Shown here: piece after piece, positions 14,158 to 48,802 of the stretch
How positions within the stretch are numbered: the first letter of the stretch is position 1
How the letters are laid out: every line of letters begins with the position of its first letter
Assembly (NCBI RefSeq): GCF_011516755.1
Contig: NZ_WOSY01000001.1
Coordinates: 310,001-374,000 of the forward strand
Length of the DNA stretch: 64,000 bases
Source: Acetobacter conturbans
GTDB lineage: Bacteria; Pseudomonadota; Alphaproteobacteria; Acetobacterales; Acetobacteraceae
Direction: 5' to 3'
Notes under the pieces: model-generated
Told to the model about the DNA's origin: nothing
Databases searched by the model: none
The model's input: only the letters and a program-made list of their open reading frames with translations
Made by a program: the position numbers and the translations under genes

Positions 14158-15693
14158 TTACACCGCATCCAGAAGGGCCGTGAACATGGATTGCACGGCG
14201 GTTATGATTTTTGCATTGGCTGTATAGGCGTTTTGCAAGGCGATAACTTTTGACATCTCGTTGTCCACATCCACACCCGACACGTTGGATACGCTTGTTG
14301 TCAGTGTGGTCTGAACAGAGGTCGCGGTTGTCAGATTAGACGATGCCGTCGAAGCCACGGAAGCCTGCGAGGACGTCAGCGCCGTCGCCAGATTGGCCAG
14401 GGTCTGACTACCGCTATAACCGGTCGAGATGGTCCCGTTCACCCCCAGACCGGAACTCGGCGCGGCCGGTGTGCCACTTCCCAGCGCTGTGGTCAGGAGC
14501 GATTCAGCCAATGTCGTCGAACCATCTTCTGAAAGAGAGGACGGATCGGATGAAAGTGAAGAACTGACCTGAATTGTGCTGGCGAAACCCACAATCCCGT
14601 CTGGCGTGCCCTCAGTCGTGCTGGAACTGGGGATTACCCCGGAACTGTCGGTGAAAAGGTCGATACCTGCAGAACTGAATCTGTCGGCCAGAGTATAAGC
14701 GAAAGAATCGAGCTGCGCCTGCATTGTCGGATAAGTGGTGTCCCGCAACTGGATGTTGGCACCGAGACTTCCGCCCGTGAGGTCCGAAGTCAGGTCCGTC
14801 GTGCTTCCCACCAGCGTAATCGCCGGAATATCACTGGAAGAGGATGAAGACGTCTCGGAGGACGTAGCCGCAAGAGTGATGTCTTCTGTCGTGAGGGGCC
14901 ATGTCGATGACGCTTCCAGCGTGCTCGAAGAGTCGGACGGATAGGTCGAGGTGGCGTTATTTTCGCTGTCCGTGGGATAGGTCGGCAGCTGTGTGCCATT
15001 GGCCGTCTTGACCAGCATGTCCCCTTTTGATGTCTCGGTATAAGACACGGAGATATAGGACGACAGGTCGGACATGGCAGCAGAACGCTGATTTTCCAGA
15101 TCGGCAGTACTGACTCCCTGAGCCTGCAATGTCATGATCTTTTTGGACAGCACGCCGATCGTCGTCAGGTCCGTATTGACCGACGATACTTCGGTAACAA
15201 TGGAATCCTCAGCCGACTGTCTCTGCGTCTGGTAAGCGGAAGAAAGCGTATTGATCGTGGAGGCGAGCGTCGATGCATCCGAGACGACAGTGCTTCGTGC
15301 CGTTGAATCGGTCGGCGAGGAAATCAGGGATGTAATCGCATCCGAAATATTGCCGACTTCGTCTGTCAATGAGCCCGTTGAGCCTGAATCCGAACTCGTC
15401 GTCCCCTGCAAGGCCGTAATAGCGGAGAGCGAGTTGTCTTCCACCGTCAGACCGGACACCTCGGCGTTCTGTGTGTAAAGACTGGCCTGAAGGGCAGCAT
15501 TCACATTTCGCGTGGTGAGGCCAATGGAAACACCCGAACCCGTTCCTGCGGTATCCTTGGCGTTCAGGTTCGCATTTTCCGACACATAGCCAGTTGTGCT
15601 TGCGTTGGAGACATTCTGCGAAACGACGCCAAGGGCGTACTGGGTACCCTCCAGCCCGCTGGTGGCAATTGACAGGGCGTTGTTCAGATCCAT
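14158..15693 (-). CDS. flgK: Flagellar hook-associated protein FlgK (HAP1)
   Basis: Hook-filament junction protein. The start MDLNNALSIATSGLEG at 15693 is used, not the longer frame at 15750, because it matches the rod/hook family N-terminus and has GGAG about 9 bases upstream. The N-terminal D0 helix ends with QNVSNASTTGYVSENANL. The C-terminal helix has the typical NEMSKVIALQNAYTANAKIITAVQSM-like pattern ending in FTALLDAV. 511 residues, slightly short for the family, with a Ser/Thr-dominated middle. Second gene of the flgE-flgK-flgL unit. Confidence 0.92.
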   Translation of the reverse strand: MDLNNALSIATSGLEGTQYALGVVSQNVSNASTTGYVSENANLNAKDTAGTGSGVSIGLTTRNVNAALQASLYTQNAEVSGLTVEDNSLSAITALQGTTSSDSGSTGSLTDEVGNISDAITSLISSPTDSTARSTVVSDASTLASTINTLSSAYQTQRQSAEDSIVTEVSSVNTDLTTIGVLSKKIMTLQAQGVSTADLENQRSAAMSDLSSYISVSYTETSKGDMLVKTANGTQLPTYPTDSENNATSTYPSDSSSTLEASSTWPLTTEDITLAATSSETSSSSSSDIPAITLVGSTTDLTSDLTGGSLGANIQLRDTTYPTMQAQLDSFAYTLADRFSSAGIDLFTDSSGVIPSSSTTEGTPDGIVGFASTIQVSSSLSSDPSSLSEDGSTTLAESLLTTALGSGTPAAPSSGLGVNGTISTGYSGSQTLANLATALTSSQASVASTASSNLTTATSVQTTLTTSVSNVSGVDVDNEMSKVIALQNAYTANAKIITAVQSMFTALLDAV

Positions 15694-15740
15694 GACCCAG
15701 AACTCCAGAAAAACCCCGCCACTTCCATGAATATGGTCAG

Positions 15741-15778
15741 GGCGCACCACGCCCGGCAGTTTTGCCGGAGTGGCGCCT
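15741..15778. repeat. Long GC-rich hairpin between flgE and flgK
   Basis: GGCGC.CCACGCCCGGC on the plus strand pairs with GCCGG.GTGGCGCC across a 6-base loop, about 15 pairs with small bulges. A T-run (TTTTATT) follows only on the plus strand, so it is not a normal terminator for the leftward flagellar operon. It could slow, protect or attenuate the flgE-flgK message, or stop antisense transcription. Confidence 0.6.
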
Positions 15779-15852
15779 TTTATTGAACCGGACGTGGCTT
15801 CCGATCTTTTTTCAGACTGCCACGCTCAGATGAAAAACAGGTTAAGAACCTA

Positions 15853-17181
15853 TTACTGGATCATTGCGATCGTTGACTGAAGCAGACTGTTCGCGGTCGT
15901 GATGACCTTTGTATTCGCCGTGTAAGCTTCCTGCGCAACGATCAGGCTCGACAGGTCCGACGTCAGATCCGTGGTGGAGGATTCCGTCGAGGAGGTTTCA
16001 AGCGTGCCCGTGCCGTTTGCACCGACGACACCCGTCGTCGCGGACCCGGAAGCCGCCGTCGCGACGTACGACTGCCCGTCGACAGCCATCAGGCCATCAG
16101 CATTTTTGAAGGATGACAGAGCAATCTTACCAACAAGCTGCGTGTCGCCATTGCTGAAGGTCGCCATGACGGAGCCATCACTCTCCATGGAAATCCCTTC
16201 ATAAGTCGCGGAGGTTGCGCTGTCGCTTGTGAGGGTGGGCGTCGTGGAGTTCTCGGTGGCGGTCGTGGTGCCGGAAGAGCTGCCGATCGTGCCGATATTC
16301 AGATCTACCGTCTGGCCCGCTGCGCCATTGGTGTAGGAAAGGGTGATCGGAAGAGTGGCCGTCGATCCTGTGGTGCTGTTGAGCACATTACCGCTGGAAT
16401 CCTTCACATCCAGAATATTGCCGCTGGAATCGAAGTCGACCGTATAGGAAGAACTATCGCTGGCGACCGCCATGGTTGAATCCGTCGAGGATGCCGCATT
16501 GGCGACCGTGACAGTGGAACTATAGGTGGTGGTTCCGTCTGTGGCGGTTGACGATGTCAGGGCTGACCAGTCCACGCTGAGCGAATGCGCCTGCGAGGTG
16601 GAATCATACACCGTCTGTGTCATGTCGGTCGCGGCGGAAGAAGAAAGTCCGCCAGTCTGCGTCAGCGTCGTCGTTTCCGTGGGACGGAACGTGACGTTGG
16701 AGACATTGAGCTGCGTCAGCTGATCGCTCAGGGTGCCCGTGGTGGAATCAGCCATATATCCGTCGAGATAATAGCCGGAAGTATTGACGAGGTAACCGTT
16801 CTTATCTTCGGAGAAATCACCGTTTCGCGTGTAATACTGCTGATCGGAGAAGCTTTCCGTGCCGGAAGTGGCTTGCCCGGATGCTTCCGACACGTCAAAG
16901 AAGCCATTGCCGGAAATGGCCAGCGCAAGAGAGTTCGTGCTGGTTGAAATGGTGCCCTGCGCCTGCGTCTGCGTGGTCGTCACGGCGCCGACGCCGTCAG
17001 AGACGGCCTGCCCACTGGAATAGGAAGAAAGGTTGTTAGAAACATAATCCTGAAAAGAGGTGTCTGAAGCCTTGTAACCGACCGTCTGGCTGTTCGCGAT
17101 ATTATTACTGAGATTGGTAAAAGCCGTTGACTGGGCATTCATACCCGCATCGGCGGTCGTCAGGGCATTGAAAATCGACAT
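15853..17181 (-). CDS. flgE: Flagellar hook protein FlgE
   Basis: Structural subunit of the flagellar hook. 442 residues. The N-terminus MSIFNALTTADAGMNAQS followed by LSNNIANSQTVGYKAS is the classic rod/hook signature. Next come LALAISGNGFFDV and YYTRNGDFSEDKNGYLVN, and the C-terminus has LIVAQEAYTANTKVITTANSLLQ. Strongly enriched in Ser, Thr, Gly and Asp. TAGGAG lies 7 bases before the ATG, and a sigma-54-type promoter lies about 60 bases upstream. First gene of the leftward hook operon. Confidence 0.95.
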   Translation of the reverse strand: MSIFNALTTADAGMNAQSTAFTNLSNNIANSQTVGYKASDTSFQDYVSNNLSSYSSGQAVSDGVGAVTTTQTQAQGTISTSTNSLALAISGNGFFDVSEASGQATSGTESFSDQQYYTRNGDFSEDKNGYLVNTSGYYLDGYMADSTTGTLSDQLTQLNVSNVTFRPTETTTLTQTGGLSSSAATDMTQTVYDSTSQAHSLSVDWSALTSSTATDGTTTYSSTVTVANAASSTDSTMAVASDSSSYTVDFDSSGNILDVKDSSGNVLNSTTGSTATLPITLSYTNGAAGQTVDLNIGTIGSSSGTTTATENSTTPTLTSDSATSATYEGISMESDGSVMATFSNGDTQLVGKIALSSFKNADGLMAVDGQSYVATAASGSATTGVVGANGTGTLETSSTESSTTDLTSDLSSLIVAQEAYTANTKVITTANSLLQSTIAMIQ

Positions 17182-17243
17182 GGATCACTCCTAAAGGGGG
17201 CCCCGGCAGCACGGATGCCGACGACCTCAACACCCCATAGACA

Positions 17244-17260
17244 TGCACGAAGCGTGCCAG
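17244..17260 (-). promoter_or_regulatory. Sigma-54 promoter for the flgE-flgK-flgL operon
   Basis: On the minus strand the site reads CTGGCACGCTTCGTGCA: an exact TGGCAC -24 box, 5-base spacer, then GTGC for the TTGC -12 box. The invariant GG and GC dinucleotides have the correct spacing. Predicted transcription start is near 17233, giving a 52-base leader before flgE. Confidence 0.75.
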
Positions 17261-17657
17261 ACCGTGCCGTATAACGATTTTTTTTCGAATGCCGGAAAAG
17301 CTTCGGAAAATCATGGGCTTTTTTCTTTCTTGCTTTCTCAGCATCCCCGCAAGGACAGCCACCTGAAACAAGGATGGTAAAAACAGACCCGGCATATAAT
17401 GCCTGCACGGCACATTTGACCGGCATCCGGCACCCTTTTCAACGACGGACGGTGTCATTCCGCTCAATGGGGAAAGAAGAAATTTGATACCCTGAGCGAG
17501 GCAAATGCACGTCTTTCCGGCCCGGAAGACCACTCAGCCAATTCCTTATAACACGTTTAAAAACCTATGATTATTTACAACATCCTCATAATCGTCCGGC
17601 ATGATGCCCTGACCGTCGGACACCATAAGCGCCTTGTCACAGGCATTTCGCTGAATG

Positions 17658-17674
17658 TTGGCCCGAAACTTGCA
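17658..17674 (+). promoter_or_regulatory. Sigma-54 promoter for fliK-flgD
   Basis: TTGGCCCGAAACTTGCA matches the sigma-54 consensus with one mismatch in the -24 box and a perfect TTGC -12 box at the standard spacing. The predicted start near 17685 lies 25 bases before the fliK ATG at 17710 and downstream of the alternative ATG at 17674. Confidence 0.78.
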
Positions 17675-17709
17675 TGCTCTACGGGCATATCATTCGGTTG
17701 GGTTTAGTC

Positions 17710-20082
17710 ATGGCAAATTTGCTGACATCGCGTCTTACTGAAAATCAATCGGGAGGGACAAACGTCGCTGCCCAGTCTTCAGCCAGCACGAAAAACCGTG
17801 ACCCACAGTCATCCACTGGCAGCACGGCACAGACAACCTCAGGCAGAAGCTCATTCAGTACGGTCCTGACGCAGCGGATCGCGGCAAGTCAGAAAACCGA
17901 TCCTAAAAAGCAGGCCAGCGCGACGGCCACCGACAAAACATCCGCAACCACGGCCTCCCAGGTCACGGCCGCAAACACGAGCAGCCAAACGAACGTCACG
18001 TCGGACCCAACCGCCACAACCGACGCCACCGATGTGACGACCACGCAAAATACGACGACTGATCCGGTTCAACTGGCAGCGACAGTAGAAGACGGAAGCA
18101 TGACGCTCACGCGACAGACAGCAGGCGCACATAACAAGGGCATGACAGATCTTTCGAATTCCGATGACGATTCATCGGATGATGACGAAACCACTCTGGC
18201 GGTCGCTTCTCCGCTGACCCTTGAGTTTGCGGCACTGTTTGCCCAGTCGTCCGTTGCCACCCCCTCGTCTTCGGTTACACCCTCCTCAACGCCCAGTGAC
18301 GGCATCGCCATAGCCTCGGTGTCCGCCGCCGGTGCGACAGGGGCCGCCAGCACCTTCGCTGCCCTTGCCGCGAATACCAGTGCTGACAGTAGTACCGCGA
18401 CAGACCAGAATACTTCTTCTGAGAGCGCCACCGAACCCACAGCAGCCTCTTCCACAAACACTGCCGCCACCACACAGAGTGCGACCGCCACAACGTCCGC
18501 AAATGACCAGTCCCTTCTGAATGTGATGATGGCTGTTCCCGATGCGACTTCGATTTCCGGCGCTTTCAGCACGGCAGCCCAAGCCGCTTCATCAGGCGTT
18601 GCGCCGGGCGTGTCTTCCACTCCCATCGTGACAATGGGCACCCCTCAGGCGACGGGAGATGCGACGGCAGCCATCCCGACGAATGCCAGTTCGAATACCG
18701 CCGACGCGGCGTCCACCACTTCAACGCCCGTGGCCACCTCCGCACCGACCAACACCGCTCTGGCCGCACAGATTGCCATGACCTCTCTTGGAGGCACGGC
18801 TCCGTTCCCACAGATCAGCGGCGCGAATGACTCCACACCTCTTTCCAGCATTGCTGGAACGCAAGTGACTGAAGGCAGCCTCTCTTCTGCCGCCTCCTCG
18901 GGGAGTGACACCAGCCAGACCGGCATGCCGTCCATCACGGCTGCTTGCTTTCCGGCGACCAACGGTGACGCATCCATGCAGGCGCAGCAGCTTTCCCAAC
19001 TCTCGTCCACTGCCTCGCAGCCTGTCACCACCACCACGGCCAGCAACTCCGTCGCATCCACCGTCGCAACGCCCCTCAACGCCACCCCGTCTTCCGACTC
19101 AACGGCTTCCACAGAGACAACGGCTTCGACCCTCCTCGCCGCGGCTTCGGCATTTCAGCAGCCTTTGACAGCCCAGAACGCTTTTTCCGCGCAACAGGCC
19201 GGACAGACAACGAATGGCCGGACGGATGGCAACCGGATCTCCGCAAGCGACGGCCAGAAGGCTACCAGCGACACAACCCTCTCACCTGGTTCCGCACAGC
19301 CTCAGCAGGCCACCACAGCCATCGCTTCGACCAATGCCGGATCATCTAAAACATCCGACCAGGACACTTCTGACGAGCCGGGGCTGAAGGATCAGGCAGC
19401 GGAGAAGCAGACAGACAGCACCGGCGCTACGGTCGGTTCTTCCTCATTTGCACAACAGGCGTTGCTCTCCGAACAGAAGACAGCAACGCCTGAGGCCACA
19501 ACAGTTCAGACATCCACCACAACCGCAGCAAACCACCCGACTACAACGGCAACATCCTCCGCAGCGTCGAGCACGACCGATACCAGCTCTACGGCCCTGA
19601 ATCTCACGGTCTCGCTGCAGGATGACCAGAATCCTGTACAGGTCACCATCGACCGTTCCGGCGATTCTTCCGGCCTCAGCATCCATATCGGCACCGATGA
19701 GCAGACGACGCTGAACGATCTGAACACCCATCAGCACGAACTGCTCAATGCGCTCGAAAATGCCGGCATCTCAACGGCAGATTCACAGATCTCATTCGGT
19801 CTCACCGACAACTCCTCCGGCTTCTCCTCCTCGCAGCAGGGGGGCCAGGATCACGCCTTCCAGAATGACGGGACAGCCTCCAGTGGCGGTTCTTCAGACT
19901 TTGCAAATGCTTTTGGCGGTACACTGTCGGGTAACAGTGATGGAAACGGCACGCAGGGTGACGGAGGCTTACGCTCCCGGACAATGACGGCGTCCACCAT
20001 CACCCGGACGATGGATGAGACAAGTGACACGACCTATGCCGGTCCCGTCGGGCGGACGGGCTCCGTAAACATCACAGCCTGA
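17710..20082 (+). CDS. fliK: Flagellar hook-length control protein FliK
   Basis: Secreted ruler that sets hook length and switches export specificity. 790 residues, long for the family. Almost all of it is low-complexity Ser/Thr/Ala/Gln sequence with very few charges. The recognisable C-terminal Flg_hook domain spans about residues 630-705: LNLTVSLQDDQNPVQVTI, then LSIHIGTDEQTTLNDLN and LLNALENAGI. The start at 17710 (MANLLTSRL) is chosen because the earlier ATG at 17674 falls inside the sigma-54 -12 box. flgD follows after 11 bases. Confidence 0.87.
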   Translation: MANLLTSRLTENQSGGTNVAAQSSASTKNRDPQSSTGSTAQTTSGRSSFSTVLTQRIAASQKTDPKKQASATATDKTSATTASQVTAANTSSQTNVTSDPTATTDATDVTTTQNTTTDPVQLAATVEDGSMTLTRQTAGAHNKGMTDLSNSDDDSSDDDETTLAVASPLTLEFAALFAQSSVATPSSSVTPSSTPSDGIAIASVSAAGATGAASTFAALAANTSADSSTATDQNTSSESATEPTAASSTNTAATTQSATATTSANDQSLLNVMMAVPDATSISGAFSTAAQAASSGVAPGVSSTPIVTMGTPQATGDATAAIPTNASSNTADAASTTSTPVATSAPTNTALAAQIAMTSLGGTAPFPQISGANDSTPLSSIAGTQVTEGSLSSAASSGSDTSQTGMPSITAACFPATNGDASMQAQQLSQLSSTASQPVTTTTASNSVASTVATPLNATPSSDSTASTETTASTLLAAASAFQQPLTAQNAFSAQQAGQTTNGRTDGNRISASDGQKATSDTTLSPGSAQPQQATTAIASTNAGSSKTSDQDTSDEPGLKDQAAEKQTDSTGATVGSSSFAQQALLSEQKTATPEATTVQTSTTTAANHPTTTATSSAASSTTDTSSTALNLTVSLQDDQNPVQVTIDRSGDSSGLSIHIGTDEQTTLNDLNTHQHELLNALENAGISTADSQISFGLTDNSSGFSSSQQGGQDHAFQNDGTASSGGSSDFANAFGGTLSGNSDGNGTQGDGGLRSRTMTASTITRTMDETSDTTYAGPVGRTGSVNITA

Positions 20083-20093
20083 AAGAGCAGACC

Positions 20094-20888
20094 ATGACGA
20101 CAACCACCTCACTTCTTTCGACCGCTGAGACAGCAGCGAAGTCGTCCGCCACGACCAACGCCGCGTCGATCAGTTCGGCCTCCACGACAACGACGACAAC
20201 CAGCACCAGCGCCCTGTCGTCACTGTCTAGCAATTTCAGTACGTTCCTGACGCTGCTCACCACCCAGCTGCAGAATCAGGATCCCAGCAGCCCGATGAGC
20301 AGCGACACCTTTACCTCCGAACTGGCTCAGTTCGCAGGTGTGGAACAGCAGGTGGCCACCAACACTAACCTGACCACTCTCATCTCCCTCACCGAAGACG
20401 GTCAGCAGTCGAGTGACATGTCGCTCGTGGGCAAAACGGCGACGGCCAGCACGACGCAGCTTCCTCTTCAGAACGGAAGCAGTTCGATCTCGTTCAACAC
20501 GACCAGCGCGGAATCGATCGCCATCGCGGTTACGGACAGTTCCGGCAATGTCGTCAAAACGGCCGAGCTCACGTCGAGTGCGGGGGCCAATACCTGGACG
20601 TGGGACGGCACGAACACCAGCGGCACGCAACTGGCGGATGGTTCCTACAATGTCGCCGTGGAAACAGAGGACGGCAGTGGCAACACCTCCACTGTTCCCT
20701 TTACCGTTACCGGCACCGTCACGGGCATCAGCAACAACAGCGGCACCATCTACGTCAAGATGGGCAGCTCTCTTATCGATATGGCGGATGTCACATCCTT
20801 TACGGACGCGTCATCCACGACGAGCAGCAGTTCGACTACATCAAGTGCGACAAGCACAAGCAGCGCGTCCACATCCACGACGAGCTGA
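20094..20888 (+). CDS. flgD: Flagellar hook assembly (capping) protein FlgD
   Basis: Hook-cap scaffold required for FlgE polymerisation. The conserved N-terminal core FSTFLTLLTTQLQNQDPSSP with MSSDTFTSELAQFAGVEQQ is at residues about 45-85. It is followed by a FlgD Ig-like/tudor region (WDGTNTSGTQLADGSYNV). Both ends are long Ser/Thr stretches; the last 30 residues are almost purely Ser/Thr/Ala. 264 residues. It lies 11 bases after fliK, in the same rightward unit. Confidence 0.93.
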   Translation: MTTTTSLLSTAETAAKSSATTNAASISSASTTTTTTSTSALSSLSSNFSTFLTLLTTQLQNQDPSSPMSSDTFTSELAQFAGVEQQVATNTNLTTLISLTEDGQQSSDMSLVGKTATASTTQLPLQNGSSSISFNTTSAESIAIAVTDSSGNVVKTAELTSSAGANTWTWDGTNTSGTQLADGSYNVAVETEDGSGNTSTVPFTVTGTVTGISNNSGTIYVKMGSSLIDMADVTSFTDASSTTSSSSTTSSATSTSSASTSTTS

Positions 20889-28248: not shown

Positions 28249-30117
28249 GTGGACAGACAGCATTACCAACGGTGGGCGAAGACAAGCGCCCGATTGTGTC
28301 TTTCGCTGTCCGTGGCGGGCCTTCCTCTGGTTGGCTTTCCCCATCTTGCGCACGCGGATAGCACCGCCGAGATCGCTCAGCTGCGCACGATAGTGTTCCA
28401 GCTTCAGGCGCAGGTGCGGGAACTCCAGAAAAACCGGAAACCGACACGGGAAGAACCGTCTCGATCCATGCGGGCGGCACAGGGCCGCAGCCTGAAGCGG
28501 CCGCCTGCTCGCGTAGCCGCCACTTCGCCCGACGTGACGCCTATCCTGCCGGTTACCACCGCAGGTCCCGCACGAACGGGACAGGATCTGACGGGAGCGA
28601 TGCTTATCGATGGCAAACCGGTGCCTGCCCTTTCGGCGGATGCCGTTCCGGATAGCGTCGCACTGGAACCGGAAACGGTCCGCAGCATAAATCTCTCATC
28701 GTCCAGCCCGACAGCCCTGACCCAGACCGAAGTGGACAGCCTGCCGCCCATCTTCAAGATCGGCGGTGTTTCCGTGCGACTGGGCGGTTTCGTGGATATG
28801 TCCAACATCTACCGCGACAAGAACCTGACCGCCGGACCCGCCACGCCGTGGGGTTCCTTTCCCTATTCGGGCAACCCCAACGCCCATGCCTCGGAATATC
28901 GTCCGACCGCCCAGCTCAGCCGCTTCAGCCTTCTGATCGAAGGGAAACCGGCGAAAGGCGTCACGGTCGAAGCCTATGTGGAAAGCGATTTCGGCGGCTC
29001 GGGCAGCAACTCCAACGCGGTGCAGACCAACAGTTATGTACCCAGGATGCGGCAGGCCTATCTGGCTGCCGACGACCGCGAGTTCGGGCTGCACTTTCTC
29101 GCAGGACAGGCGTGGAGTCTGGCGACTGGCTACACCAACACGCTCCTGCGTCGTCACGAGCAGTTGCCGCCTGTGGTGGACAGCAACCTCATTCCCGGCG
29201 TGACGTTCACGCGCGTGCCGCAGATCCGTCTCATCAAGGACTTCAACCGCAAATGGTGGCTCGGTCTCTCCGTCGAGACACCGCAGGCCACACTCGGATT
29301 CGACGATTCCACCCTTGTCTCGGGCGATGCTATCCCCGCTGCTGCCGGACAGAGCGCCGGGCCTCACGTGGTCTATAACAGCACCGGCTCCGGCATGCTT
29401 GACCCGGAAGCGCATTACAGCATGGATGTCGCGCCCGACATCGTACTCAAGGGTGCGGTCGATACATCCATGGGACATTATGAACTCTATGGACTGGCGC
29501 GCTGGTTCCGCACGGTGGTCATCGACGGCAGCGGCGCCAGCGGAAAAGCGCACTCACGGGTCGCGCTCGGAGGAGGCGTTGGCGGGTCGATGGTCGTCCC
29601 GCTGCTTTCTTCGGGGAAAATCCAGTTCGTGGGAGATGTTCTCGCGGGCAAGGGCATCGGTCGCTACGGCCCGAGTCAGCTTCCGGACATGACGTTGAGC
29701 AGTTCCGGGGCACCTGCCCCTCTGAAGGAAATCATCGGCTCGGTCGGTCTGATCGGTCATCCGACCAAAAACCTCCTGCTCTACACGTATGGTGGCGTGG
29801 AAGCAGCGCATCGTTCGGTCTATGACGGCGCTGACGGCAACTATTACGGTTATGGCTCGCCGACCACCAACCTCGCGGGCTGTGCCATCATGCTCGGCAC
29901 CTGCAATGCGGAGACACGGGCACTGGCCTCTTTCACCATGGGTGGATGGTGGCATCTTCTGGATGGCCGCTACGGCAGCGTCATGGCGGGGCTACAATAT
30001 ACTTACGTGCGGAAATTCGCTTTTCGGGGCTTGGACAATGCTGGCGCTGTGACGTGCCCCACAGCGAATGGCAATACTGTGTTCGTGACGTTCCGGTATT
30101 ATCCGTTCCAGAACTGA
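28249..30117 (+). CDS. DcaP-like outer-membrane porin (paralogue 2)
   Basis: A 622-residue exported barrel protein, paralogous to the gene at 6326-8179. The signal peptide ends at AHA|DS near residue 36. A short coiled coil follows (IAQLRTIVFQLQAQVRELQKN split by heptads), then a Pro/Thr linker and a beta-barrel with SRFSLLIEG, FGGSGSNSNAV, PRMRQAYL and a C-terminal FRYYPFQN. The GTG start at 28249 has GAGGAA 10 bases upstream. Both paralogues keep the barrel motifs but differ in the linker, which suggests different substrates. The 250 bases before it hold no gene. Confidence 0.8.
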   Translation: MDRQHYQRWAKTSARLCLSLSVAGLPLVGFPHLAHADSTAEIAQLRTIVFQLQAQVRELQKNRKPTREEPSRSMRAAQGRSLKRPPARVAATSPDVTPILPVTTAGPARTGQDLTGAMLIDGKPVPALSADAVPDSVALEPETVRSINLSSSSPTALTQTEVDSLPPIFKIGGVSVRLGGFVDMSNIYRDKNLTAGPATPWGSFPYSGNPNAHASEYRPTAQLSRFSLLIEGKPAKGVTVEAYVESDFGGSGSNSNAVQTNSYVPRMRQAYLAADDREFGLHFLAGQAWSLATGYTNTLLRRHEQLPPVVDSNLIPGVTFTRVPQIRLIKDFNRKWWLGLSVETPQATLGFDDSTLVSGDAIPAAAGQSAGPHVVYNSTGSGMLDPEAHYSMDVAPDIVLKGAVDTSMGHYELYGLARWFRTVVIDGSGASGKAHSRVALGGGVGGSMVVPLLSSGKIQFVGDVLAGKGIGRYGPSQLPDMTLSSSGAPAPLKEIIGSVGLIGHPTKNLLLYTYGGVEAAHRSVYDGADGNYYGYGSPTTNLAGCAIMLGTCNAETRALASFTMGGWWHLLDGRYGSVMAGLQYTYVRKFAFRGLDNAGAVTCPTANGNTVFVTFRYYPFQN

Positions 30118-30197
30118 AGGCAGCAAGACGTTCAGGGAAAAGTGCTGTTCTTTGGTTGTCCAAGGTCTTTTGCAGGGAATTATTGCCCGGCGCAGGA

Positions 30198-31346
30198 CTA
30201 GGGGCCCACCCCAACCGTGACGGTATTTCCGCCCCGCTTCTTGCTTTCATACATGGCAAGATCGGCAATTTTCAGAAGTTTGGATGTATCTGTGGCTCCC
30301 TGTTCACAGAACGCAATGCCCACGCTTGCCGAGGACCGCAATTCATATCCCTCGAACAGAAGCGGCGGCTCAAGAGCATGGCAGAATGATTCCGCCAGCC
30401 GAAGAGCTTCGTTGCGGTGGTGCAGGCCGGTAAGACAGGCAGTGAACTCATCCCCTCCCAGCCGCGCGATCACGCAGCCCGGATGGGATTCCACGCATCT
30501 GGAAAAGCGGTGTGCCGCCTCTGTCAGAAGCATATCGCCTGCCGAATGTCCGAAACGGTCATTGATCTGCTTGAAATCATCAAGGTCGATGAGACAGACT
30601 GCTGGCGGGACGGTCGGCACGGTCCAGGCCTGAACCGTTTCCTTCAGGGTCTTGTGAAAACTGGTCCGGTTGGGAAGCCCCGTAAGCGGATCGTGGGAGG
30701 CATCATGCAGGAGCTGTTTCTGCGCCTGCTCGCGTTCCATGACGCGCGCGATATGGCCTCCGACATTCATGCACAGGCCGACCACCGGCTCCTCGGCCTT
30801 TACTTCCGCGCAGGAGAAGAACACCAGCAGCGCACGCACTGACCCGTTGGCAATGACAGGAAAGCCGAGCGCATGGGCCAGCGTCGCCGGCACGTCATCG
30901 CTTTGGGTGCATCGCCAGCTGAGGATTTTTTGTTCGCTCGTGATCTCCGCAGCAATGCCACCCGCATCGAACAGTCCGGAAACGCGGCAGGCCATGAGAG
31001 CGTTTGCACAGGTTTCCGGCGTCTCCGGACAGCACAGATGCGGGCTGGCAACACTGATATCGCCCTCATCCTGCAGGAAGGCGATTCCACAACTCATGCC
31101 GAGACCTCTGCACGTTTCGAGCAGCGTAACTTCGATGACACGGTTTGCGGAAGACGTGGTGTTCGCACAACTGACTATGGTTTCCAGCAGTTGCTGCTGG
31201 GCATTGCGCCGATAGAGTTCGCGGAGGCCACGCTCCGCGATCGCCTCCGCTTCCCGGCGGATTTTTCGCTCACGTTCGAGACGCCGGACTGCCACTTCAT
31301 ACAGCTTGCGATAATCGTCTGATGAATGTCCGGCGTCGCTGGCCAT
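30198..31346 (-). CDS. GAF-GGDEF diguanylate cyclase, coupled to H-NOX
   Basis: A 382-residue predicted c-di-GMP synthase. An N-terminal helix (RKLYEVAVRRLERERK) precedes a GAF-like sensory domain (about residues 45-205), then a GGDEF domain starting HDPLTGLPNRTSF. The active motif RLGGDEF is intact, with DLDDFKQIND as metal/GTP site. The inhibitory RxxD site five residues before GGDEF is absent (HPGC there), so no classical product feedback is expected. The ATG at 31346 overlaps the H-NOX stop as TGATG; a second ATG five codons upstream (31361) is also possible. Confidence 0.9.
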   Translation of the reverse strand: MASDAGHSSDDYRKLYEVAVRRLERERKIRREAEAIAERGLRELYRRNAQQQLLETIVSCANTTSSANRVIEVTLLETCRGLGMSCGIAFLQDEGDISVASPHLCCPETPETCANALMACRVSGLFDAGGIAAEITSEQKILSWRCTQSDDVPATLAHALGFPVIANGSVRALLVFFSCAEVKAEEPVVGLCMNVGGHIARVMEREQAQKQLLHDASHDPLTGLPNRTSFHKTLKETVQAWTVPTVPPAVCLIDLDDFKQINDRFGHSAGDMLLTEAAHRFSRCVESHPGCVIARLGGDEFTACLTGLHHRNEALRLAESFCHALEPPLLFEGYELRSSASVGIAFCEQGATDTSKLLKIADLAMYESKKRGGNTVTVGVGP

Positions 31347-31882
31347 CAGGTGTCCAGCCATCGAATAATCATATCGTTTTCCTGCGGCGATCCGGCTGGA
31401 AAACGTTCGACGGACACTTTTTCATTCCATTCCCCCGCCGCACCGATCACGAAACCGTGCGCAAGGTCCAGAAGCTTTCTGGAGGAACGATACGTCATCC
31501 GGACGGCTTCATCGGACTCGTCCTGAAAGCGGAAATAAGGGCAGCACGCCCCTGAATACAGCTTCATCACTTCCGGATGGATGATGGTGTTGACCGACAG
31601 GACAAAAGCTTTTGACGAATGGAACGGCGCGAACAGTTCGGGATAAAAAGATTTCAGAAGTGGCATGGCCGTTTCCCCGAACCAGCGAAGCACATCCTGT
31701 TCCGGCACGCCAAGCCGGGCTGCCGCGGCTGTCACGATCGCCTGAATGTCACCGTCGGGATAATCTCCCAGAGAGGAATAGACACCGTCCAGACCGGTCT
31801 CATCCAGAAGGATATCCCATGTCTCGGCACCATAACATCCGGAGATGGCATCTTCGAGCAGATTGAAAACGACGCCCTTCAT
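31346..31882 (-). CDS. H-NOX haem nitric-oxide sensor protein
   Basis: A 178-residue stand-alone H-NOX domain that binds haem and senses NO. The proximal ligand is His102 in NTIIHPEVMKLYSG, and the propionate-binding YxSxR motif is at Tyr131, Ser133, Arg135 (TYRSSRKL). Pro115 and Trp67 are also at family positions. Residue 140 is Leu rather than Tyr, residue 9 is Leu and residue 74 is Pro, so the oxygen-stabilising network is missing and NO selectivity is expected. GGGAG precedes the ATG. It is coupled to the diguanylate cyclase, its likely partner. Confidence 0.93.
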   Translation of the reverse strand: MKGVVFNLLEDAISGCYGAETWDILLDETGLDGVYSSLGDYPDGDIQAIVTAAAARLGVPEQDVLRWFGETAMPLLKSFYPELFAPFHSSKAFVLSVNTIIHPEVMKLYSGACCPYFRFQDESDEAVRMTYRSSRKLLDLAHGFVIGAAGEWNEKVSVERFPAGSPQENDMIIRWLDT

Positions 31883-32043
31883 CAGACTCCCGATCAGAAT
31901 GAATTACATTGCTGATAAGTTTGGCACTCTTAATGCTCACATCTGGTTAAGAACATCTTTTCAAAAACACGTCAGTGCAATCGGCATACCATGAATGCAC
32001 ATCAGCCTCGTTTCACGAGACCCCTGATACTGGGCGAGAGAAC

Positions 32044-32982
32044 TTACTCCTCCGGCCCCAGATGCCGCATCCCCCGTTCCGCAGCCAGTTGGGTCTGCCG
32101 TTCGCGGTCTGCATAACGGCGACGCTGCTCTTCCGTCCGTTCATCATGACAGGCCGGACAACTCACACCTTCCTCGTAGAGAGGGGAGGCTTTGTCGTTC
32201 TCGCTGACCGGGCGACGACAGGCATGGCAGACACCGTACCGGCCCTGTTCCAGACCGTGCTTCACGGTGACGCGCTGGTCGAAGACAAAGCACTCACCGT
32301 CCCACAGGCTCTCACTTTCGGGGATCGTCTCAAGGTATTTCAGAATACCACCCTTGAGATGATAGACTTCTTCCACGCCTTCGGCTTTTGCGAAGGCGGT
32401 GGATTTTTCGCAGCGTATTCCGCCGGTGCAGAACATCGCCACTTTCGGACTGCGGCCCTGCACGACCAGTTCGTCACGCTTGGCGCGAAACCAGTCCGGA
32501 AACTCGCGAAACGTCGCAATCTCAGGGTCGAGGGCACCGCGGAACGTCCCGACCGCGACTTCATAATCATTGCGTGTGTCGATGACGATCGTGTCCGGAT
32601 CAGCGATCAGGGCATTCCAATCGGCGGCCTCGACATAAGAGCCGACAATGGCGAGAGGATCGACCCCCGGCACGCCCATGGTGACGATCTCTTTTTTCAC
32701 GCGCACCTTCATCCGCATGAAAGGCAGTTCCGTCGCACGAGACTCCTTCACCTCGATCCCGGCGCATCCCGGCAAAGCGCGAATATGATCCAGCACCTTG
32801 CCGATGGCCTCATCGCTGCCTGCGATGGTGCCGTTGATCCCTTCTCCAGCCATCAGAAGGATGCCCCGCACGCCAAGCGAGCAGCACAGCTTCGCCAGTG
32901 GCATACGGATCGCCTCGCAATCCTCGAAAGGCGTAAAGCGGTAAAGGGCGACAACCCTGACAGGAAGGTTCTGGTCAGACAT
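32044..32982 (-). CDS. trhO: tRNA uridine-34 hydroxylase TrhO (rhodanese family)
   Basis: A 312-residue YceA/TrhO protein that hydroxylates U34 of tRNA in an oxygen-dependent way. The N-terminal acylphosphatase-like domain carries [19 protein letters not shown]. The rhodanese domain has [13 protein letters not shown] and the active-site [10 protein letters not shown] with Cys185. A C-terminal cysteine-rich segment (CHACRRP, CPACHDE) probably binds zinc. Its start overlaps the ABC ATPase stop by 8 bases, an unusual partner that implies translational coupling. Confidence 0.94.
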
Positions 32983-48726: not shown

Positions 48727-48802
48727 GCCCAAGTAGCTCAGTTGGTAGAGCATGCGACTGAAAATCGCAGTGTCACTGGTTCGATCCCGGTCTTGGGCAC
48801 CA
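48727..48802 (+). tRNA. tRNA-Phe (GAA)
   Basis: A 76-base cloverleaf. The acceptor arms GCCCAAG/CTTGGGC pair fully. The D arm is AGCTCAGTTGGTAGAGCA-like, the anticodon loop CTGAAAA carries GAA, the T loop is TTCGATC, the discriminator is A, and CCA is encoded. A possible promoter TTGATC...TTAAAT (48662-48689) with 16-base spacing lies at the end of yacG and just after it. Confidence 0.97.

Follow-up and report, generated by a model that had tools for sequence, protein, structure and literature searches.

In Acetobacter conturbans, a gene for an H-NOX (haem NO/O2-binding) protein overlaps a gene for a diguanylate cyclase, and the two probably form a switch that links NO to c-di-GMP. The best reading of the locus, by analogy with characterised pairs, is that a non-O2-binding, NO-type H-NOX would regulate the cyclase encoded beside it. 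What is new here is that the cyclase represents the cyclase-only end point of an apparently once-bifunctional enzyme, and that it begins with a helix shared among H-NOX partners. The features of the pair are listed below, numbered from the first base of the window, that is, the whole 64-kb stretch of DNA analysed.

31346..31882, minus strand: H-NOX protein, 178 amino acids (PF07700, E = 2.1e-33; phmmer to PDB 2kii, E = 7.7e-22)
31538..31591, minus strand: helix F and haem-ligand stretch of H-NOX, NTIIHPEVMKLYSGACCP, residues 98-115, with HxxVxKLY, Cys114 and Pro115 (alignments)
30198..31346, minus strand: predicted diguanylate cyclase, 382 amino acids, with helix, GAF-like domain and GGDEF, without EAL (PF00990, E = 3.1e-37; structure model, mean pLDDT 86)
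31191..31298, minus strand: N-terminal helix common to H-NOX partners, cyclase residues 17-52, about 36 residues (profile; within predicted helix 9-63)
30813..31148, minus strand: GAF-like domain, cyclase residues 67-178 (secondary structure order; Foldseek best match 4zmu; GAF_2 in homologues)
30225..30701, minus strand: GGDEF domain, cyclase residues 216-374, GGDEF motif at 297-301 (Pfam; alignment; structure match)
30474..30485, minus strand: I-site position, cyclase residues 288-291, with HPGC in place of RxxD (alignment)
31929..31953, minus strand: block TTAAC..TGTGA..A upstream of H-NOX (alignment of 8 Acetobacter loci)

The H-NOX protein scored 116 bits against PF07700 (HNOB; curated cut-off 25.5), and its predicted structure model was well folded. 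Residues 1-165 aligned to residues 1-165 of PDB 1u4h, so the family numbering should apply, and the closest solved structures included 2kii and 6ocv (E = 7.4e-19), which we take to be the H-NOX proteins of Shewanella oneidensis and Vibrio cholerae. As the original prediction stated, the alignment placed His102 (the haem ligand), Pro115 and the YxSxR residues Tyr131, Ser133 and Arg135, in the protein's own numbering, at the family positions. The O2-pocket residues Tyr140, Trp9 and Asn74 are a feature of the Thermoanaerobacter tengcongensis H-NOX; positions 9, 74 and 140 here are Leu, Pro and Leu, confirming the further claim that the O2-binding network is missing. Judged by these residues, the pocket is of the NO type, without distal hydrogen-bonding side chains. 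The only cysteines of the protein are Cys16 and the neighbouring Cys113 and Cys114 at the haem pocket, such that a zinc-cysteine redox site, which we considered, seems absent. Cys114 and Pro115 are kept together in 12 of 12 aligned H-NOX proteins of the close GGDEF/GGDEF-EAL group and in L178, and the other H-NOX proteins of the phylum set mostly have ELP, EPP or similar at this place. A redox or haem-ligand role for this Cys-Pro pair is possible.

The cyclase is predicted to be a diguanylate cyclase, as the motifs we looked at are present: the GGDEF motif and the metal and substrate residues are kept (DLDDFKQINDRFGH, GGDEF and KKRGG). The original prediction had described both an intact GGDEF and a feedback site reading HPGC, and the alignment agrees on each point. 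The RxxD I-site is common in diguanylate cyclases without defining them. It is also missing from the other Acetobacter rows and from both rows of the related genus g60 that cover the region, so its loss is probably old. No EAL domain was found at E ≤ 0.01 in the 64-kb window or in the Acetobacter loci searched. In an AlphaFold2 model made from six sequences (mean pLDDT 86, pTM 0.63), the protein begins with an extended helix (residues 9-63), followed by an alpha/beta domain (67-178); a linker helix (186-217) then leads into the GGDEF domain, which matched the GGDEF domain of YfiN (7a7e) with a VIA-align Z of 25.0 and an rmsd of 1.5 over 162 residues. The best Foldseek match of the model was Dcsbis (4zmu, E = 7e-17), presumably a GAF-GGDEF protein. 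VIA-align matched residues 71-379 of the model to it with a Z of 24.5, but the rmsd over 277 residues was 16.8, meaning that the domains are placed differently in the two. The GAF label of the original prediction found no backing from Pfam in the cyclase itself, where the best GAF family was GAF_2 at E = 0.17, but the predicted fold and the 4zmu match favour it, as does the homologous region of two related partners, which passes the GAF_2 cut-off (L058, E = 9.4e-8; L062, E = 1.1e-10). We call the domain GAF-like. In the L062 partner, a long insertion separates the I-site region from GGDEF, and phmmer matched the GGDEF domain of this partner in two overlapping pieces, as if partly repeated.

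On the minus strand, H-NOX precedes the cyclase, and at the junction, ...GACACCTGATGGCC, a single A both ends the H-NOX stop codon TGA and opens the cyclase ATG, which bears out the predicted one-base TGATG overlap. If the cyclase instead started at an in-frame ATG further upstream (31361), the overlap would be 16 bases. Measured from the first start codon of each frame, the overlap is 1 base in the A. oeni and A. fallax orthologues and 4 bases in those of A. musti and A. estunensis. Junctions this close are ordinary: of the 32 H-NOX/partner pairs in a phylum-wide sample, all but one have an in-frame partner start no more than 30 nt from the end of H-NOX, and in 12 pairs such a start overlaps the H-NOX stop. 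Since overlapping H-NOX/GGDEF pairs are already known, with hnoX overlapping dgcA in Paracoccus denitrificans (available text of PMC5588039), the Acetobacter pairing is itself of a known kind.

The N terminus of the cyclase carries a feature that recurs across H-NOX partners. Comparing partner N termini by eye, we saw the helix consensus RRLxRERxARxEAExxxExxxxxLYxxN in cyclases, GGDEF-EAL proteins and kinases alike. A strict regular expression matched 14 of 46 partners, and in its place we used a profile built by eye from 22 stretches of H-NOX partners (a 21-row version for genome searches), against which the cyclase, itself part of the profile, scored 50 and 54 bits. Among the open reading frames of the window and the collected loci, the 22-stretch profile at E ≤ 1 matched only genes that follow H-NOX. 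The genes matched included the actinobacterial partners, which lie outside the profile, in nine of nine loci (L016-L024), several of them near-identical in sequence and three from Acidimicrobiales; the three scanned, L018, L021 and L022, were above the HisKA cut-off, the latter two also having HATPase_c. Across 385 alphaproteobacterial genomes there were 11 matches in 11 genomes, 9 of them directly after an H-NOX gene and the other two the weakest (27 and 25 bits).

A sample of 398 genomes from the phylum, partly overlapping the alphaproteobacterial one, gave 53 matches in 50 genomes. H-NOX-family genes adjoin 35 of these (one of the 35 being a fragment and one broken over two frames; adjacency in genomes G000, G453 and G673 was taken from other searches in the same analysis), and adjacency follows score, with 30 of 32 matches at 36 bits or more having an H-NOX neighbour and 5 of 21 below. 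The remaining 18 matches, 15 of them in a single family (f23) and 16 under 36 bits, indicate that the helix is not exclusive to H-NOX partners; the five that we scanned, two from f23, were all kinases. In genus g436 the helix begins two kinases (L211, L218), each with a 360-amino-acid gene upstream; the product of the L211 gene is an MCP that carries a CZB (zinc-binding) domain, and the docking helix may be paired there with another sensor. The 32 H-NOX-linked partners retrieved in the phylum search include HATPase_c in 22, GGDEF in 10 and EAL in 10 and have a mean identity of 14%, and the sole invariant columns of their alignment fall in the helix, by which these partners had been selected. 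The helix has an RExxxRxxAExxxE core and is mostly N-terminal; in L119 it is internal, at about residue 180 of the reading frame, and weak (28-34 bits). We propose that the N-terminal helix of the cyclase is a docking site for H-NOX.

Helix-linked H-NOX proteins share a pattern of their own. We assembled 41 loci chosen solely by H-NOX, comprising 22 of 24 from Acetobacteraceae, 18 of 19 from alphaproteobacteria and, added separately, the A. conturbans window (of the two sets, the matches left out are the window itself and A. estunensis G387). A helix partner is present in 19 of the 41 and missing from 22. The haem-ligand region is followed by the pattern [EDN]-V-x-[KRM]-x-[YH] in 19 of 19 helix-linked H-NOX proteins versus 0 of 21 others, the truncated L068 being left out of the table. 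As the pattern was chosen post hoc, 17 of the 19 helix-positive partners are part of the profile and the rows share ancestry, the Fisher value of 7.6e-12 is a description of this table only. In the phylum set, the strict pattern is found in 25 of 32 H-NOX proteins and a looser HxxVx[KR]x[YH] stretch in 29 of 32. Kinase-side mapping by hydrogen-deuterium exchange (HDX) is reportedly contained in Rao 2017 and Guo 2018, which may already describe the site on the kinase. On the H-NOX side, the surface facing the kinase comprises helices A-C and F according to HDX work as summarised in the available text of PMC7108781, in keeping with a role in docking.

Some H-NOX proteins depart from the canonical haem site. 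In L066 and L067, the His lies one residue earlier (HEVEVRKLY and HEREVRKLY) and YxSxR reads YxSxK; their haem ligand may have moved or disappeared. Both keep the EVRKLYP stretch and have helix partners all the same. A more divergent H-NOX-like group (L069-L079) in other Acetobacteraceae genera adjoins GGDEF/EAL or EAL proteins; Tyr replaces the haem His in L074-L076 and L079, some members lack the Arg of YxSxR, and several of these neighbouring proteins open with another conserved sequence, QKLxxxxNFxLD. L129-L131 represent the H-NOX group, described in the accessible part of PMC8738867, whose members mostly have Pro where the His would be. Their partners have no helix match, and that of L129, the only one of the three scanned against Pfam, had HNOBA just above cut-off.

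On this evidence we put at about even the chance that one docking module, the RExxxRxxAExxxE helix recognised by a face of H-NOX to which the HxxVxKLY helix F belongs, is common to H-NOX partners of different outputs in Pseudomonadota and actinobacteria, has been swapped between those outputs, and in Acetobacter drives a cyclase derived stepwise from a bifunctional enzyme.

The derivation of that cyclase can be followed among its relatives. Among named species, the nearest H-NOX loci are those of A. oeni (77% identity), A. musti (73%), A. fallax (68%, residues 81-176) and A. estunensis (67%), and the Acetobacter partners are 379-395 amino acids long with no EAL at E ≤ 0.01. Partners in three other genera, g60 (L058, L059), g64 (L062, L064) and g92 (L065), align in full over helix, GAF-like domain and GGDEF and continue into an EAL domain, for lengths of 634-751 amino acids; the g17 partner (L066) is likewise GGDEF-EAL, but shorter, and has the helix, and the L063 and L067 partners had no GGDEF or EAL. 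In a maximum-likelihood tree of the shared helix-GAF-GGDEF part of 17 chosen partner sequences, the seven EAL-less Acetobacter rows formed one clade (support 100/100) with g60 as its sister (96/99); 8 of the 14 inner branches of this tree are open, some of them within the Acetobacter clade, and four rows elsewhere are long-branched. At the metal-aspartate site of the EAL domain, g60 has NSFGGG or NSFGSG. All other aligned EAL rows keep DDFG (DDFGTG, or DDFGAG and DDFGSG in L179 and L195), the aspartates of which we take to be metal-binding. The simplest history is that the phosphodiesterase half appears to have decayed and then been lost, turning a bifunctional enzyme into a cyclase.

To place the pair in its genomic setting, we considered its distribution and neighbours. 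HNOB matches were found in 24 of 397 sampled Acetobacteraceae genomes and in 8 of 49 genomes of the genus Acetobacter; in the A. conturbans genome, H-NOX matched once, GGDEF ten times and EAL eight times. Both genes are open frames in seven of the eight Acetobacter copies, and the active-site residues are kept in all five of these that were read. In A. fallax, the H-NOX gene breaks off at about codon 96 at one contig end and continues at a second one (L092 and L093), the sequence on both sides of the break being unrelated, as with an insertion element, and the cyclase is intact. Four of the five g60 copies are damaged, by an internal stop in H-NOX (L059), a partner cut to 173 amino acids (L060), a split partner (L061) or an H-NOX of 53 amino acids (L068); errors of draft assembly may explain some gene breaks. 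In A. musti, A. oeni and A. fallax, the pair adjoins genes that are presumably hslVU and trpS; L087 and L089 show a second setting, A. estunensis a third, with a tRNA-Lys in the locus, and the A. conturbans window a fourth, where none of the proteins other than the pair matched these Acetobacter loci (E ≤ 1e-10, >35% identity). Kept in at least four Acetobacter settings, the two genes thus stay together while their surroundings change. We rejected TrhO, a porin and other neighbours as parts of the system: five neighbour proteins gave no match (E ≤ 1e-5) in the 17 further loci compared, from Acetobacter, g60, g64 and g92, which extend no further than about 6 kb from the pair and in which H-NOX served as the positive control.

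A TTAAC..TGTGA..A block 47-71 bases upstream of H-NOX is conserved in the eight aligned Acetobacter loci despite their differing contexts and could be a promoter or operator. Scans of positions 30000-32200 gave one promoter-like site (shuffle mean 1.0) and three terminator-like sites (shuffle mean 2.1), neither above chance, and the sole Rfam match was a tRNA at 48727-48799.

Patchiness raises the prospect of the pair being an accessory, in decay or seldom used, that moves between sites, is lost and has little physiological role. Its restriction to 8 of 49 Acetobacter genomes, the A. fallax H-NOX split at about codon 96 and flanked there by foreign sequence and the four broken copies of five in g60 would all fit, but both genes remain open in seven of eight Acetobacter copies with active-site residues kept in the five read, the upstream block is conserved across contexts, and assembly errors may account for some of the breaks. 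We consider decay unlikely. A change of sign, in which NO would raise cyclase activity and the EAL half was lost as the sign changed, strikes us as quite improbable. With EAL absent in Acetobacter and degenerate in g60, the ancestral NO-to-phosphodiesterase arm is gone from both, as such a change would have it. However, the characterised direct pairs, Legionella Hnox1/Lpg1057, Dinoroseobacter H-NOX/Dgc1 and S. woodyi SwH-NOX/SwDGC, are all NO-negative in the available text of PMC8846402, and inhibition by H-NOX has been inferred from mutants for the GGDEF-only pair of P. denitrificans (PMC5588039, accessible portion).

A redox sensor, in which cyclase activity would be set mainly not by NO but by oxidation of the haem or of the Cys113/Cys114 pair next to Pro115, would suit an organism such as Acetobacter, which is an obligate aerobe, and the retention of Cys114 before Pro115 in all 12 close-group rows and L178 also counts in its favour. 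Precedent exists in the Caulobacter and V. cholerae H-NOX proteins, which respond to cysteine oxidation (available text of PMC12329717 and PMC7108781). The Caulobacter protein binds NO, but its NO form does not inhibit the kinase, whereas cysteine oxidation does (PMC12329717, same portion), so an H-NOX can bind NO without having NO as its signal. Those precedents rely, however, on a Cys-ligated zinc site, which appears absent from a protein with only Cys16, Cys113 and Cys114, and the NO-type haem residues are present. It seems doubtful to us that redox is the main input, and we favour the NO-to-c-di-GMP switch.

For that switch, we infer NO binding, docking at the helix, the sign of the effect and the cellular output as follows. 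H-NOX would bind NO at the haem held by His102. Movement of the haem and subdomains, which is known for the H-NOX family, would then alter how helix F and helices A-C of H-NOX (the distal face) sit on the cyclase helix at about residues 9-63. This helix would run through the GAF-like domain and the linker helix (186-217) into GGDEF, such that docking would shift the register of the dimer. By analogy with characterised pairs, NO would inhibit the Acetobacter cyclase, most likely lowering its activity and yielding less c-di-GMP. Without an EAL domain, the cyclase could only make less c-di-GMP and not destroy it, removal being left to the genome's other EAL proteins, and without an I-site it should escape the usual product inhibition. 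The GAF-like domain may take a second, dominant signal. NosP/FIST was rejected as a second NO sensor, as the A. conturbans genome has no FIST match.

Cellulose synthesis, one of two outputs put forward originally, loses its footing here: the A. conturbans genome (a draft, 99.94% complete) has no BcsB and no PilZ match at E ≤ 0.001, and the suggestion is thus without support for this genome. The other, motility, is a possible output. One flagellin match above cut-off lies elsewhere in the genome, which also has one MshEN match, and genes for FlgK, an FlgE-type hook protein and FlgD are found at 14158-20888, about 9-16 kb from the pair.

Several known systems resemble the Acetobacter pair in part. 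The original prediction had pointed to H-NOX control of cyclases in Shewanella and Legionella, and this is corroborated by S. woodyi SwH-NOX/SwDGC and Legionella Hnox1/Lpg1057 (H-NOX-associated c-di-GMP enzymes, HaCE), which, like the Acetobacter pair, join H-NOX to a c-di-GMP enzyme and which are NO-negative (available text of PMC8846402). The partners SwDGC and Lpg1057 are bifunctional (accessible text of PMC5588039), whereas the Acetobacter partner has no EAL; of the traits of a GGDEF-EAL-type HaCE, Acetobacter shows gene adjacency to H-NOX and lacks the EAL domain. Closer in architecture is P. denitrificans hnoX/dgcA (Pden_3719/3720), in which, as in Acetobacter, H-NOX overlaps the gene for a GGDEF-only cyclase, the N-terminal part of which is described as a domain of unknown function; its H-NOX is without the haem-ligand His, in contrast to the Acetobacter protein with His102 (PMC5588039, same text). 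In the alphaproteobacterial sample, the EAL-less GGDEF partners of His-less H-NOX (L129-L131) gave no helix match, unlike the Acetobacter cyclase. In the H-NOX/HnoK pairs of Shewanella, Vibrio and Caulobacter, the partner gene adjoins H-NOX, overlapping it in Caulobacter (available portion of PMC12329717), and the output is a histidine kinase rather than a cyclase. H-NOX-linked kinases in the genomes examined, the named HnoK proteins not being among them, have the same N-terminal helix as the Acetobacter cyclase. The S-helix, a helical segment of about 40 residues in signalling proteins with varied outputs, is similar to the shared helix in these respects, but sits between receptor and effector domains (PMC1592074, accessible text), whereas the shared helix is mostly N-terminal and has the RExxxRxxAExxxE core. 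The stretch LEQRVEHRTREL, which follows the shared helix in L066, has what we take to be a resemblance to the S-helix.

Judged by title and opening abstract, we found no paper on such an H-NOX/cyclase pair in Acetobacter, only a biofilm review for H-NOX with Komagataeibacter, none for H-NOX with Acetobacteraceae, and, among the open-access matches listed, no description of the shared helix of H-NOX partners.

As far as the literature covered goes, it is not well understood how partners so unlike each other are recognised and switched by H-NOX. If the shared helix is indeed the docking site, a short, defined element would become a precise target for mutation, and H-NOX partners would be recognisable from sequence by its presence. 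The Acetobacter clade and its relatives, with intact EAL, degenerate EAL and no EAL, offer a natural series on NO control of c-di-GMP, and the pair bears on c-di-GMP signalling in an acetic acid bacterium in which neither BcsB nor PilZ was detected.
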